Shown: positions 8,352 to 53,483 of the stretch, piece by piece
Numbering within the stretch: position 1 is the stretch's first letter
Layout of the letters: the number at the start of each line of letters is the position of its first letter
Assembly: GCF_009695745.1 (NCBI RefSeq)
Contig: NZ_VUNH01000012.1
Location: forward strand, 1 to 64,000
Source of the DNA: Pyramidobacter porci
GTDB taxonomy: Bacteria > Synergistota > Synergistia > Synergistales > Dethiosulfovibrionaceae
Length of the DNA: 64,000 bases
Direction: 5' to 3'
Notes under the pieces: generated by a model
Databases searched by the model: none
What the model was told of the DNA's origin: nothing
What the model saw: the letters and a program-made list of their open reading frames with translations, nothing else
Translations under genes and position numbers: made by a program

Positions 8352-8502
8352 AACGAGCAACCTCCTCTTCGGAATGATCTTGTTTGGCGAGCCAAGCATA
8401 GCACAAAAACGTTGCGCTGTCTGCGCGAGTCCCGCTTCAGTCTCGTCCCGCCTCAGGATTTGACAGGGCGCCTGGAGGCGCTTAAAATATGTGAAAATGG
8501 AA

Positions 8503-8652
8503 CGTCGCCGGGCGTCGGAAGCAGGTGAAAATCCTGCGCGGCCCCGCCACTGTAACCCCTGACGAAACGGTATCACGCTCACTGAGGGCTTTCGGCCTTT
8601 GGGAAGGGCGCCGCGGAGGACGATGGGGAGTCAGGATACGCGCCGGGCGACG
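8503..8652 (+). promoter_or_regulatory. cobalamin riboswitch aptamer
   Basis: It contains the classic B12-box elements in order: GGAAGCAGGTGAAAATCCTG, then GCGGCCCCGCCACTGTAA, and GAGTCAGGATAC near the end. The closing helix pairs 8503-8509 with 8646-8652. It precedes the BtuF-type gene and is followed by an intrinsic terminator, so B12 binding should reduce expression of the uptake operon. Confidence 0.95.
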
Positions 8653-8713
8653 CGAAGGAAGGCTTTTGCGCGGGCGAAATCTTTTCAGTGCAGCAGACAT
8701 CACTGTCTCTAAA

Positions 8714-47364: not shown

Positions 47365-48750
47365 CTAGAACACGTTGCGGTACATGATCACGATCAGCAC
47401 GACCGGCAGGCCGTAGGTGATCCAGGGTCTCCACCAGCCGCTGACGCGCCAGGCATGGCTTTCGTTCAGGCCCTTGTTCGCCTCTTCCATGTAGCCGTTG
47501 AACTTCAGCACGAAGGAGATGTAGAGCGAAACAAGCAGCGCGTCGACCGGCATCATCACGTTGCCCGACAGGTAATCGGCGAAGTCGAAGATGCTCTTGC
47601 CGAGGATCCGGCACGCGGACATCCAGCCGTGCCCTTCGCTGAGCGAATAGACGCAGGGCAGGCTGAGCGCGAACATGACGAAGACGACGATCCAGGTCAT
47701 CTTGCTGCGCTTCACCTTGAAGAAATCGGCGAAGCAGGCCACGGGAGCCTCGAGATAGCCGAGCCCGGAGGTGTAGCCGGCGACGGCGACGAGAATGAAG
47801 AACAGCGAAGCCCAAAACGACCCCATGGGCATCTTGCCGAAGACGACGGGCATGATCTCCATGACCAGGCCGACGCCGCTGGCGTTGGGATCGGCGCCGT
47901 AGACGAGCAGAGCCGGGAAGATGACCACGCCGGCGATCAGCGCGAAAGAAGTATCCATGGTCACGACCATGGCGGCGTCCTTGGGCATGTTGTCGGCGTC
48001 GCTGCGATAGGAGCCGTACACGACGGCGGTGGCGATGCCGACGCCGATGGAGAAGAAGCTCTGTCCGAGGGCATACAGCCACACTTCGGGGTTGCCCAGC
48101 TGGCTGAAATCGGGGCTGAGGTACCATCTCATGCCGTCCATGGCGGTTTTGCCGACGCCTTCCACGGGGCTGAGCGTCAGCGAGCGGACGGCCAGCGTCA
48201 CGATCATGACGCCGAGGATGGGCAGCAGCCACTTGCAAAGTTTCTCGACGCCTTCCTTGACGCCGCGGGAAATCGCCAGCCCGAGCGCGACGAAGACGAC
48301 GACGGTGTAGGCGATCAGCTCGAAGGGGCTCTTCATGAAGTCGCTGAACATCATTTTGGTCTGCTCGAAGGTGGAACCGGCGAAGACGCCGCTCAAAGCC
48401 TTCACGGCGTAGCGGACCATCCAGCCGATGATGACCGTATAATAGGCCATCAGCACGATGCAGGCGATGGCTCCGACCCAGCCGATCAGCGACCAGAAAG
48501 GCTTCTTTTCCTTCAAGAAGCCGACGATGGGCGTCGCTCTCATGCGGCGGCCGATGCTCAGCTCGCCGAGGAACAGAGGCAGACCGACGAAAACGCAGAT
48601 CAGCACGTAGGCGAGCACAAAAGCGCCGCCGCCGAACTTGCTGGTGAGGTAAGGAAAACGCCAGACGTTGCCGAGGCCGATGGAAAATCCGGCGGCCGAA
48701 AGGATAAAACCGATGCGACTGCCAAAACTGTCCCGTTTCTGTTCTTCCAT
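47365..48750 (-). CDS. sodium:neurotransmitter symporter (NSS) family transporter
   Basis: 461 aa, ~11-12 helices. The NSS hallmark GLGNVWRFPYLTSKFGGGAF near 25-45 (Na+ and substrate site) and a late YTSGLGYLEAPVAC segment are present. Bacterial NSS proteins take up neutral amino acids with Na+. It follows grdX on the same strand, close to grdE-grdB, so glycine or an N-methylated glycine is the likely cargo (inference). Confidence 0.88.
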   Translation of the reverse strand: MEEQKRDSFGSRIGFILSAAGFSIGLGNVWRFPYLTSKFGGGAFVLAYVLICVFVGLPLFLGELSIGRRMRATPIVGFLKEKKPFWSLIGWVGAIACIVLMAYYTVIIGWMVRYAVKALSGVFAGSTFEQTKMMFSDFMKSPFELIAYTVVVFVALGLAISRGVKEGVEKLCKWLLPILGVMIVTLAVRSLTLSPVEGVGKTAMDGMRWYLSPDFSQLGNPEVWLYALGQSFFSIGVGIATAVVYGSYRSDADNMPKDAAMVVTMDTSFALIAGVVIFPALLVYGADPNASGVGLVMEIMPVVFGKMPMGSFWASLFFILVAVAGYTSGLGYLEAPVACFADFFKVKRSKMTWIVVFVMFALSLPCVYSLSEGHGWMSACRILGKSIFDFADYLSGNVMMPVDALLVSLYISFVLKFNGYMEEANKGLNESHAWRVSGWWRPWITYGLPVVLIVIMYRNVF

Positions 48751-48859: not shown

Positions 48860-49216
48860 TCACACGTGGAGTTTTGCCGCTTCGGCAAGAGCCGTTTTCA
48901 AATGCTCAAGGTCGATCCAGCGGTAATCGGCGTCGGCTCCCTTGGGATCGTCGAAGCCCTGCCGCGACAGAAGTTCGATCGCCCGGTCGAGAATGTCCCG
49001 GTCGTCGCCCTCCCACGAGGATTTTTCGGCGACGACGACGGAACGATAAGGGCTTCTGTTGAGGCGGTTGTTCGCCGACAGCGGATGCGTGACCAGATGC
49101 CATTTTTTCTCCACATATTCGGAAACTTTCAGCAGCACGTCCAGCGGACTTCCTTCGACCAGCACGGTCGCGTCGAGTTTCGCCGCTTCGACGTCCGGAT
49201 TGTTGGTGACGATCAT
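48860..49216 (-). CDS. grdX: GrdX protein
   Basis: 118 aa. It begins MIVTNNP and contains THPLSANNRLNRSPYRSVV near 58, as in the GrdX proteins found beside glycine-reductase operons; molecular role is not established. CGGAGG precedes the start. It lies between grdB, from which it is separated by a terminator, and the NSS symporter, so its own promoter in the 49217-49329 spacer is likely. Confidence 0.8.
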   Translation of the reverse strand: MIVTNNPDVEAAKLDATVLVEGSPLDVLLKVSEYVEKKWHLVTHPLSANNRLNRSPYRSVVVAEKSSWEGDDRDILDRAIELLSRQGFDDPKGADADYRWIDLEHLKTALAEAAKLHV

Positions 49217-49329
49217 GGTCAGCCCTCCGAGAAAATGATTTCAAGAATCAGACGTTAAATTCGTCTTTGTTAACGTGGTTTTATGCCTGAGAGAATGGAT
49301 CGTGAAAATTTTCATTTGCGCGGCGGCGC

Positions 49330-49364
49330 AAAAAGCCGGTGGAACCCGACGAGGTTCCGCCGGC
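49330..49364 (-). terminator. terminator after grdB
   Basis: 12-bp stem GCCGGTGGAACC / GGTTCCGCCGGC (one G-U) with five T following on the - strand. Confidence 0.8.
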
Positions 49365-49412
49365 TTTTTGGTGTCCCATCACAGGAAAGCGACAGGAGCC
49401 ATTCTTCGAACG

Positions 49413-50726
49413 CTAGAACGCTTTGAAAATCGTCTGCTTGTCGATCGGCGTGACCATCGCCTCGAGCGCCTTTTCGAGCAGCTTGCGGCGGGCCTTTTTG
49501 TCCTCTGCGTCGCCAAGCTCGGGCTTGCCCACGGGGTGGGGGATGGCGACTCCGGGGACGATCCGGTTGGAACCAACAGTCATCATGATCGGCACGATCG
49601 TGGCGATCTGTACGACGGGAATGCCGGCCGCCTTCTCGATTTCACGCGACATCGATGCACCGCATCGAGTGCAGGAGCCTCAGGTGGAGGTGAGAATGGC
49701 GGCGTCGACGCCCGCGGCTTTCAGCTCCGGGCCGATCTCCTGGCCGAACTTCTCGGCCCAGGCCACGGCCGTGCCGGTGCCGGTGGTGCAGTACACGTAC
49801 TTGTAGATTTTGCCGATCTTGCCCTCCTTCTCCAGCTCGCGCATCTCGTCGAGCGGTAGCACCACGTCGGGATCGGCGTTGGCCCACTGCGTGTCGTAGC
49901 CGCCGTGGATGGACTCGTAGTTCTCGGGGGTGAGGTCGTTCAGGCCGGTGATGTCGTAGCGGCCGTAGGACTCCGCGGAGGAGACGCGGATCTTGTCGGG
50001 ATTGCCCTTGGGGACGATGCCGCCGGAGGTGATCAGGGCGATGGTGGCGTGCTTGAGGTCCTTGACGGGCGCGCAGGGTGCGATCTTTTTGAAGGTCGGC
50101 ATCTCGTACTCGGTCTGGAACGGCTCGCCGGCCATCTTCTTGAGCAGCATTTCCAGGCCGCGCTGAGCGCCGTTTTTTTCGTGGAAGAAGACGCGGCGGA
50201 AGCCGCGGCTGATGTAGTTCTCCTCGGCGGCGGGGCCGAGAGTTTCCTTCTTGAGCAGCTTGAGCGCCAGCGAGGCCATGGATTTGGCCGCGTCCTTGAT
50301 GCCGCGGGCGCTGTTGGCGGTCTTGACGATGAAGACTTTCTTGGCGAAGGATTCGGCGCCGGGATTTTCGGGATACATGCCGGTGACGACGGGAATGCCC
50401 AGCGCGTTCTGCACGGCGGCGCAGATGTCGCCGCAGGCCATGCCGTAGCGTCCGGCGAAGAACGCCGGCCCGGCGATCAGCAGGTCGGGCTTGTAGCTGC
50501 CGATCATCTCGAGCAGCGTCTTCTTGGCCTCTTCGTTGTGCTCGTTGAAGTAGTTGTCGCCGCAGATTACCGTGCCGACGATCTCGGCTTCCTTGCCCAG
50601 TTCGGCCTGAAGGGCGGCGCCGGGACCGACTTTGCCGTCGCGCTTTTCGGGCGGCACGTGGGCCATTTCCTCGCCGCCGATGCCGGCGTAGAACTGGTTG
50701 ATGTAATGAACGATGCGGAACGTCAT
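49413..50726 (-). CDS. grdB: selenoprotein B of glycine/sarcosine/betaine reductase (UGA-encoded Sec349)
   Basis: 437 aa if the in-frame TGA at 49680-49682 is read as selenocysteine. The frame upstream of it encodes HYINQFYAGIGGEEMAH at the start and CTTGTGTAVAWAEKFGQEIG near 320. After the TGA the same frame continues G-S-C-T-R-C-GASMSREIEKAAGIPVV to the stop at 49413. The U-x-x-C-x-x-C motif and total length match GrdB, where the Sec residue is the catalytic selenol that forms the substrate-specific intermediate passed to GrdA. Automatic annotation would split the gene in two. Whether it is the glycine (GrdB), sarcosine (GrdF) or betaine (GrdH) version is undecided. It lies 14 nt after grdE. 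Confidence 0.93.
49652..49679 (-). promoter_or_regulatory. candidate bacterial SECIS hairpin
   Basis: Directly after the Sec TGA on the - strand, 11 nt lead into a perfect 7-bp stem (49668-49662 with 49658-49652) closed by a GGT loop. Distance and a G-U-containing apical loop suit the element recognised by SelB in bacterial selenoprotein mRNAs. Confidence 0.55.
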
Positions 50727-50740
50727 GACCGATCTCCTCC

Positions 50741-52027
50741 TTACACCCAGAGCGAGCCGGACTTGTTGAAGCCGGTCTCGCAGGTCGAGCCGATGATCGA
50801 TTGCAGTTCGACGTACATGGAACCGTCGGGACGAAGGCTCTCGGCCGCGCCGCCGGAAACGTGGGCGATCGATTCGATGAAGCCGATCACCTTTTTCATG
50901 GCCGGCACCTCGAGCATCTCGTTGACGTTGCCGCAGGAGACGAAGGCCGTCATCTGCGGCGTGGCGTCGGCCAGCCCCTGCGAAGCGCCGTCGGTGCCGG
51001 AGGCTTCGTCGGCGATGACCACGGTGCTCATGCCCAGCGCTTCGCACTTGTTGACGTTCAAGCAGAGGTCGCTGTCGGGATTGCCGTAGCCCTCCTCGGT
51101 GATGATCACGCCCTTGGCGCCGAGCTCGTGGCAGAGGCGGGCGTTGAAGGACGAGGCGCGCTCCTTGCCGGCGAGGACGACCGATTCCTGCGTGGGAATC
51201 ATGCCCAGGAAGTTGACGGTTTTGCCGTGCTGGGCGTACAGTTCGCTGACCACGGGATCGTGCAGATGGTGCCACGTCGTCGTCTTGTCGCAGGCGGACA
51301 CGCAGTTGCCGGAGACCATGGCGCCGTCGAGCACTTCGTTGGGGTGCAGCAGCGTGGGCAGGCAGGTTTTGACGTCGGCGCCGTACACGTACGTGTCGTG
51401 CAGCAGTCCCTGCGTGATGCACATGCACAGATGGACGACGGGCGGCAGGTCGGGATATTTTTTCAGCTCTTCGGCCACCGTGCCCTTTTCGAAAACTTCG
51501 ACAGCGTCGATCTTCGCATTCTTGCAGCAGTCGGCCAGCCAGACGGCGGCTTTCAGCCCGGCGACGCGGATCGCTTCCTCGTATTGATGCTTTTCCAGGT
51601 CTTTGACGGGCTGGGCGATCAGCACCACGTTGAACAGCTCCGCGAACGGGCTGAACTTTGCCGCGGGGCCGGACATGTCGATGAAGCCTTCCTGGAATCC
51701 CATGATCGGGCCGACGGTGACGACGGCCGCGCCGTCGAGCACGAAGGTCGCGCCTTCGCCCGCCGTGTCGTTGGGGCCGACTACGGACGGAAAGTAGCTT
51801 TCGCCGCCTTCGAGCTTGACGCGCGGTTCGACGACGTCCTTGACGGGGATGATGCGCACCGATTCGCCCGGGCGGGCCAGATCGGCGTCCCACTTTTCGA
51901 TGCGGTCGTCGTCGGAAAGCGCGGCGATCAAACCTTCCTTGTCGACGTAGAGCACGCCGTTTTCCATGCGGGTCGGGCTGCCCCACTCGAGCCCGGTCAC
52001 ATGCGCCTTGCGAAGTTCCAGCCTCAT
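50741..52027 (-). CDS. grdE: GrdE-type proprotein of glycine/sarcosine/betaine reductase component B
   Basis: 428 aa, the normal GrdE length. It contains the conserved SGNCVSACDKTTTW segment. The Cys of GNC is residue 242, the position where GrdE is autocatalytically cut to create the pyruvoyl group that captures the amino group of the substrate. With GrdB it makes protein B. The substrate-binding version (glycine, sarcosine or betaine) cannot be fixed from sequence alone. First gene of the minus-strand operon; divergent from the CdaR-type regulator with a perfect palindrome between. Confidence 0.92.
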   Translation of the reverse strand: MRLELRKAHVTGLEWGSPTRMENGVLYVDKEGLIAALSDDDRIEKWDADLARPGESVRIIPVKDVVEPRVKLEGGESYFPSVVGPNDTAGEGATFVLDGAAVVTVGPIMGFQEGFIDMSGPAAKFSPFAELFNVVLIAQPVKDLEKHQYEEAIRVAGLKAAVWLADCCKNAKIDAVEVFEKGTVAEELKKYPDLPPVVHLCMCITQGLLHDTYVYGADVKTCLPTLLHPNEVLDGAMVSGNCVSACDKTTTWHHLHDPVVSELYAQHGKTVNFLGMIPTQESVVLAGKERASSFNARLCHELGAKGVIITEEGYGNPDSDLCLNVNKCEALGMSTVVIADEASGTDGASQGLADATPQMTAFVSCGNVNEMLEVPAMKKVIGFIESIAHVSGGAAESLRPDGSMYVELQSIIGSTCETGFNKSGSLWV

Positions 52028-52184: not shown

Positions 52185-53483
52185 ATGACGAAAAAATATG
52201 ATTCTGATGAGCGTTCATTAGTTCAAAAATATGCACAAGAAATCGCTTCTTCCACGGCGGCGATCATCGGCCACAATATCATCATCACCGACGTGGACGG
52301 CAAGATTATCGGCGCCAGCCAGAGTGAGCGCATCGGCCAGCTGCACGAGGCCTCGCTCGAAGTAGCGCGCACCGGTGCGGCCTCCGAGACGACGCGGGAA
52401 CAGGCGCGCCAATTCAGGGGCACGCTGCCCGGCGTCACCTTCCCGATCCAGAATCTGAACGGGCGCACCGTCGGCACCATGGCTCTCACCGGTTCGCCGG
52501 ACGAAGTGCGCCCGTTCGGGCTGATCGTCAAAAAGCAGATCGAGATCCTGCTGCGCGAGCGCGAGCTTTACGTTTACTCCAGCAGCCGCGAGAGCATTCT
52601 GCAGGACCTCATCCACGATCTGGAGACTTTCGTCCCCGGCGTCGGCAACGAGACCATGCTTCAGTCGCGGGCCATCGAGCTTGGGTACGATCCGAGCCTG
52701 TTCTACATTCCCATCGTCGTCGACCTCTATCAGTTCGGCCGCTACGCGCTGGAGGTCCGGCGCGAATGTCGGGATGGGGACAGCGGGCAGGTGGAGATGC
52801 GCATCCTCAACATCAAGAAGGCCGTCCTCGCGGAAATGCGCGGCATCTTCTCCCACCCGCGCACCGTTTCCAGCGTCAGCGGCAACAACCGCTTCGTCAC
52901 GCTTCATGCCGTCAAGGACGCCGACCACGCCGCCCCGCAGCACGAAAAGGCGGCCCTTGCGCAGGTCGTCGAACTCTCGCAGAATCTTTTGGACCGGCTC
53001 GAGGATTACGGGCTGAAAGCCGCCATCGGCATCGGCTCGCCGGCCCACAGCGTCGCGGCGCTGTCGCTCAGCTGCCAGGAAGCCCGCAAGGCCCTGATGC
53101 TGGGCAAAAAGTTCAAACAGCGTCCCGACGTGTACTGCATCGCCGACTTCCGCATGGAGGACGTGATCTCCACCATCGACGCGCCCGTGCGCATCCGCTT
53201 CATCAAGGGGCTGACCGGCAACCTGCGCGGCAAATCCGACTGGCCGGAATTGGAAAAGACGATCCGCGCCTGGTGCGAAAGCGGCTTCTCGCTGGTGGAG
53301 ACGGCGCGGCGGCTCCACATCCACCGCAACACGCTGATCTACCGCCTCGAGAAGATCAGGCGCCTCACCGGCGAGGACATCCACAGTTTTCGTACCTGCT
53401 TCAACTTGTATTTCGCCCTGCTGCTCGGCCAATATTCCGGCCCCGCCGCCAAGGAGAGCGCCGCTCCGCCCGCCGAAGAATGA
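52185..53483 (+). CDS. CdaR/PucR-family regulator of the grd module
   Basis: 432 aa. An N-terminal sugar-diacid-recognition-like sensor (~10-135: EIASSTAAIIGHNIIITDVDGKIIG) is followed by a GGDEF-like linker region and a C-terminal PucR helix-turn-helix (ETARRLHIHRNTLIYRLEKIRRLTG near 370-394). The start has GAGGTGATTC upstream. Divergent position next to grdE, with a perfect palindrome between, makes it the probable activator of the reductase genes in response to the substrate amino acid. Confidence 0.88.
   Translation: MTKKYDSDERSLVQKYAQEIASSTAAIIGHNIIITDVDGKIIGASQSERIGQLHEASLEVARTGAASETTREQARQFRGTLPGVTFPIQNLNGRTVGTMALTGSPDEVRPFGLIVKKQIEILLRERELYVYSSSRESILQDLIHDLETFVPGVGNETMLQSRAIELGYDPSLFYIPIVVDLYQFGRYALEVRRECRDGDSGQVEMRILNIKKAVLAEMRGIFSHPRTVSSVSGNNRFVTLHAVKDADHAAPQHEKAALAQVVELSQNLLDRLEDYGLKAAIGIGSPAHSVAALSLSCQEARKALMLGKKFKQRPDVYCIADFRMEDVISTIDAPVRIRFIKGLTGNLRGKSDWPELEKTIRAWCESGFSLVETARRLHIHRNTLIYRLEKIRRLTGEDIHSFRTCFNLYFALLLGQYSGPAAKESAAPPAEE

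Follow-up and report, generated by a model that had tools for sequence, protein, structure and literature searches.

There is a GrdB-family (protein B) gene on the minus strand of the window, the whole 64,000-nucleotide stretch of Pyramidobacter porci DNA that was analysed (Table 1). The cluster in which it lies is arranged in the order divergent regulator, grdE-type gene, grdB-type gene, inverted repeat, grdX and sodium-dependent transporter, and the GrdB-family gene starts directly after the grdE-type gene. For the proprotein encoded by the latter, the best NCBIfam model is GrdG (NF040793), although its score of 512 bits falls below the cut-off of 780. The SGNCVSAC motif of this partner contains the conserved cysteines of the pyruvoyl-forming site. 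The CdaR/PucR-type regulator is found next to grdE-grdB in other genomes as well, namely those of Pyramidobacter C12-8, a Synergistaceae MAG and a Dethiosulfovibrio MAG (loci L034, L035 and L042).

Table 1. Features of the protein B cluster, with positions numbered along the window
Feature	Positions	Strand	Evidence
Sodium-dependent (SNF/SLC6-type) transporter	47365..48750	-	NF037979, 105 bits (cut-off 50); PF00209, 210 bits
grdX-family gene	48860..49216	-	NF038093, 97 bits (cut-off 40)
Strong inverted repeat with A and T runs at its flanks, terminator-like in both directions	49330..49370		Fold of -30 kcal/mol; scan
GrdB-family (protein B) gene, predicted selenoprotein of 437 residues with Sec349	49413..50726	-	Open frame with a single TGA; PF07355; TIGR01918
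Predicted apical SECIS hairpin TCGATGC-GGT-GCATCGA, 11 nucleotides past the TGA	49652..49668	-	Covariation; codon-level test; Rfam SECIS_4
In-frame TGA, predicted Sec349, first residue of UGSCTRC (UxxCxxC)	49680..49682	-	Sequence; TGA common to nearly all listed full-length homologues
GrdE/GrdG-type partner proprotein, 428 amino acids, SGNCVSAC	50741..52027	-	PF09338, 619 bits; motif
Divergent CdaR/PucR-type regulator	52185..53483	+	PF05651; PF13556; synteny

The inverted repeat is likely a bidirectional terminator, which would part grdE-grdB from grdX and the transporter gene. An Rfam match at positions 49329-49370 that resembles an animal microRNA was rejected as merely this terminator-like inverted repeat. 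No glycine riboswitch or other RNA was found in the cluster by Rfam. Elsewhere in the window, a cobalamin riboswitch that scores over the Rfam gathering score is located on the plus strand at positions 8493-8661.

A GrdB-family gene with a single in-frame TGA

The reading frame is open from an ATG at position 50726, which is preceded by a strong ribosome-binding sequence (AAGGAGGAGAT), to a TAG at position 49413. Its sole interruption is a TGA at positions 49682-49680, which forms codon 349. The earlier note had placed the TGA at this codon with the frame intact on both sides, and this proves right to the base. The residues that surround the codon are TSTUGSCTRCGASM, and therefore include, as UGSCTRC, the U-x-x-C-x-x-C context that the note had described.

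The encoded protein matches TIGR01918 with 595 bits (cut-off 65) over residues 4-435 and PF07355 with 547.5 bits (cut-off 22). Thus, the gene has the whole-length profile match, the in-frame TGA within UxxCxxC and the adjoining GrdE/G/I-type partner that are characteristic of the GRDB family. The match to PF07355 (347 positions) covers residues 3-348 and stops immediately before the predicted selenocysteine, and this Pfam family model appears to have been built on truncated proteins.

Beyond the TGA, amino acid identity with Synergistota orthologues is 82-100% over the next 60 codons; two Bacillota rows that were aligned without gaps lose register in this test, and the figures rest on the Synergistota orthologues. 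In the same orthologue comparison, codon changes downstream of the TGA cluster at third positions. The closest named relative is Pyramidobacter sp. C12-8, whose protein is 98% identical over its whole length and whose gene has the same neighbours.

The hairpin downstream of the TGA

The TGA is followed, after a spacer of 11 nucleotides (GGCTCCTGCAC), by a hairpin of seven base pairs with a GGU loop, exactly as had been claimed. When synonymous codons were redrawn according to local codon usage, all seven pairs formed at the hairpin site in 260 of 200,000 redraws. Stems of at least seven pairs arose anywhere in the 48 nucleotides in about 30% of the redraws, and because of this the hairpin of a single sequence is weak evidence when taken alone. 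It is the comparison across genes, not the single sequence, that argues decisively for a real hairpin.

The central pair of the stem joins the third base of an Arg codon to base 1 of the codon at +9 (four codons on). These two bases are able to pair in all 63 distinct sequences, against an expectation of 23.3 of 63 derived from Arg codons of the same genes (z 13). A later codon for Ser (TCG) goes with an A-U or G-U pair, one for Thr (ACG) with U-A, and one for Ala or Val (GCG, GTG) with C-G. Similarly, base 1 of the Arg codon and base 3 of the later codon are paired in 61 of the 63 sequences (12.6 expected), and the outermost pair of the hairpin is formed in 46 of them (8.2 expected). In one homologue (L059), there is a doubly synonymous compensation wherein Arg CGA is changed to AGA together with a change of Ser TCG to TCT. 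Moreover, five local genes together contain 121 Arg codons, and the one at the hairpin site is the only CGA among them.

Among 53 distinct sequences, the covariation score is 0.216, compared with 0.051 in shuffles (none of 500 reached it) and no more than 0.070 in slid controls; because the sequences are related, the comparison with shuffles is inflated, whereas the slid controls and the same-gene codon test are not affected in the same way. In Synergistota as well as in Bacillota, the TGA and the hairpin are both conserved, and compensatory changes occur. The element accordingly has the general features of a bacterial SECIS, which are a stem-loop set a short, constant distance beyond the UGA, compensatory change and a G in the loop.

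The earlier note had proposed an RNA structure search for a bacterial SECIS as a check. The best Rfam match at the hairpin site is SECIS_4 (RF01990), found at positions 49650-49674 on the right strand with 24.5 bits (E 0.002), but the gathering score of 38 is not reached. Two paralogues from the same genome, located on contigs C13 and C3, exceed this gathering score with 60.3 and 47.1 bits, respectively. The low score of the window copy probably reflects its A-U centre, since SECIS_4 apparently has U-A at the central pair.

Decoding of the TGA

In the genome that was examined (2.53 Mb, 98.4% complete), selA and selB are found side by side, and selD and a tRNA-Sec gene (selC) are also present, such that the complete set of genes typical of a Sec-decoding organism is in place. 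The earlier note had held that the cell must carry these four genes elsewhere, and that a genome with no selB or tRNA-Sec would speak against its reading; all four were located. The selD gene has its own in-frame TGA (SSGU), and the selenophosphate synthetase that it encodes (L023:1531, G000:C5) is likewise a predicted selenoprotein. There is one grdA gene with a TGA in CFVU, and both grdC and grdD score over their NCBIfam cut-offs. There are four GrdB paralogues in the genome, the window copy and three others, and every one has a TGA at the Sec site. Among 188 Synergistota genomes, matches are found in 134, and a TGA is located inside nearly all full-length matches among the matches listed.

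What was observed directly is the open frame, the conserved TGA and hairpin, the covariation and the presence of all of the machinery genes. The machinery genes, the conserved TGA and hairpin and the compensatory changes support the proposal that the TGA is read as selenocysteine, and at the level of sequence evidence the internal UGA of the window gene is almost certainly read in this manner.

One alternative is that TGA 349 is a true stop, a sequencing error or a disabling mutation, which would leave a 348-residue protein followed by a remnant or a 79 amino acid gene. Indeed, a mechanical list of ORFs yields precisely these two pieces, an N-terminal piece that ends at the TGA and a separate ORF of 79 amino acids that begins at an internal ATG (49413-49652); this had been foreseen for automatic gene finders. 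However, this internal ATG is located at the 3' end of the hairpin and has no ribosome-binding sequence ahead of it, and the presence of the Sec machinery in the genome also weighs against a stop. In nearly all of the full-length homologues listed, which come from independent assemblies including that of Pyramidobacter sp. C12-8, this codon is likewise a TGA, and purifying selection goes on downstream of it. On account of this conservation and selection, a stop, pseudogene or sequencing error was rejected, and we consider such an explanation extremely improbable.

An open frame alone cannot identify the inserted residue, and another amino acid such as Trp or Cys might be incorporated through suppression or a change of the code. 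This possibility is given hardly any weight, because selA, selB, selD and tRNA-Sec are all in the genome and because the TGA occupies the catalytic Sec position of the family together with a covarying hairpin. Moreover, TGA codons are not scattered. There is one in the gene, and others were seen where GrdA, SelD and the GrdB paralogues have their Sec sites.

Substrate, mechanism and relation to known systems

The name grdB that was given to the gene holds in the sense that the product is a GrdB-family protein B, but it is loose, for the gene is one of four paralogues and its product fails the glycine-specific model (TIGR01917 equivalog; 569.6 bits against a cut-off of 602.2). None of the substrate-specific NCBIfam models for GrdF, GrdB and GrdH is passed by the window copy, which scores 628.1 bits with the GrdF sarcosine model (NF040794; cut-off 800) and 517 bits with the GrdH model (cut-off 775). 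The sarcosine reductase protein B, GrdF/GrdG, provides the top substrate-named models for both window subunits, but each subunit falls below the strict cut-off and the glycine copy of the same genome also tops these models. Since that glycine copy also ranks GrdF first, the NCBIfam ranking was dropped as a guide to substrate.

This glycine copy is the C13 paralogue, which passes the glycine GrdB model with 644 bits (cut-off 602.2) and, as judged by this match, is the glycine GrdB of the genome. The C3 copy adjoins a betaine transporter of the BCCT type and has a partner without the pyruvoyl-site cysteines; for these reasons it is probably of the betaine type. The fourth paralogue (L029:6510-7823; G000:C8:47509-48819) reads U-G-T-G-T-R-C, wherein Gly replaces the first Cys of UxxCxxC. 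It is divergent, with a very long branch and a best homologue in the genus or family of 47-49%, and it is found near TRAP-transporter genes, a grdX-like gene and a RidA-like gene. Perhaps it was acquired horizontally.

A tree of 69 sequences places the window copy in a clade of 30 rows that spans the Synergistota, has 100/100 support and lies apart from the C13 clade. The partner of the window copy keeps SGNCVSAC, from which, given the known mechanism, an amine substrate bound through a carbonyl group would follow. By analogy with the known family, the substrate is most likely sarcosine or another small amine, and elimination makes sarcosine a reasonable guess. A second glycine reductase protein B, as opposed to a sarcosine or other-amine type, seems unlikely, although the window copy scores near the cut-off of the glycine model, has an SNF transporter and grdX-type setting like that of the C13 cluster, and has a partner with intact pyruvoyl-site cysteines. 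Against this reading, its clade is clearly separate from the C13 copy, with which it shares 53% identity, and it has its own divergent CdaR-type regulator that is conserved in related loci. We are equally doubtful that its substrate is none of glycine, sarcosine and betaine.

Fluoroacetate reductase (NF053623) was also considered, as its FarB and FarE proteins are GrdB/GrdE relatives from the same phylum. FarB has no CxxC and FarE has no pyruvoyl-site cysteines (PMC10838667). In contrast, both the CxxC and SGNCVSAC are present in the window pair, and the partner scores 180 bits with the FarE model (cut-off 675). Fluoroacetate reductase was rejected on these grounds. No FarB-like copy was found in the genome of the window, and all four of its GrdE-type proteins fall short of the FarE model. 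Related members of the genus do carry FarB-like copies that read UGTSSRC and, like FarB, lack CxxC (L112 and L113, at G117:C144 and G116:C11, and G118:C1:360073-361338). No solved structure of a relative was found by sequence.

Taken as a whole, we are very confident in the explanation that the gene encodes a Sec349-bearing protein B subunit of the glycine/sarcosine/betaine reductase family whose UGA is recoded by means of the hairpin. The recoding itself, the chemistry and the amine substrate are drawn from the known family, and on that model the window gene would encode the subunit that carries selenocysteine in a substrate-specific protein B. The mRNA hairpin located 11 nucleotides past UGA 349 would recruit SelB with Sec-tRNA(Sec), which would be made by SelA and SelD. 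The window subunit and the GrdE-type partner encoded upstream, with its pyruvoyl-forming cysteine, would then bind the amine substrate, and Sec349 would attack the substrate carbon such that the amine leaves. The carboxymethyl group would be passed to the single GrdA selenoprotein and from there to GrdC/GrdD, which would yield acetyl phosphate.

There are well-established precedents for this arrangement. Two in-frame TGA codons occur in grdAB of C. litorale (Kreimer and Andreesen 1995, as cited in PMC13188914). The clostridial glycine reductase GrdB has the same in-frame TGA at UxxCxxC and is of the same family and partner type as the window copy, although it represents another phylum and another paralogue. 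A 2006 survey placed GrdB with those selenoproteins for which Cys homologues are very few or absent (PMC1794560). From the same phylum as the window copy, grdB genes have been described in Cloacibacillus porcorum MFA1 and in other Synergistota (PMC10838667). In MFA1, eight grdB genes are predicted selenoproteins with SECIS elements, accompanied by the full Sec machinery, and Pyramidobacter piscolens is included in the grdB gene tree of that paper. Selenocysteine in GrdB has been known since the 1990s, is textbook knowledge and has already been reported for Synergistota, and so the finding is correct and well supported but ordinary.

Standard annotation would cut this GrdB-family enzyme at its active site. 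The codon-level covariation is a clean example of an RNA element within a coding sequence, and it overturns nothing. The window gene confirms that a Pyramidobacter-like anaerobe makes selenoproteins and uses reductive amino acid fermentation.
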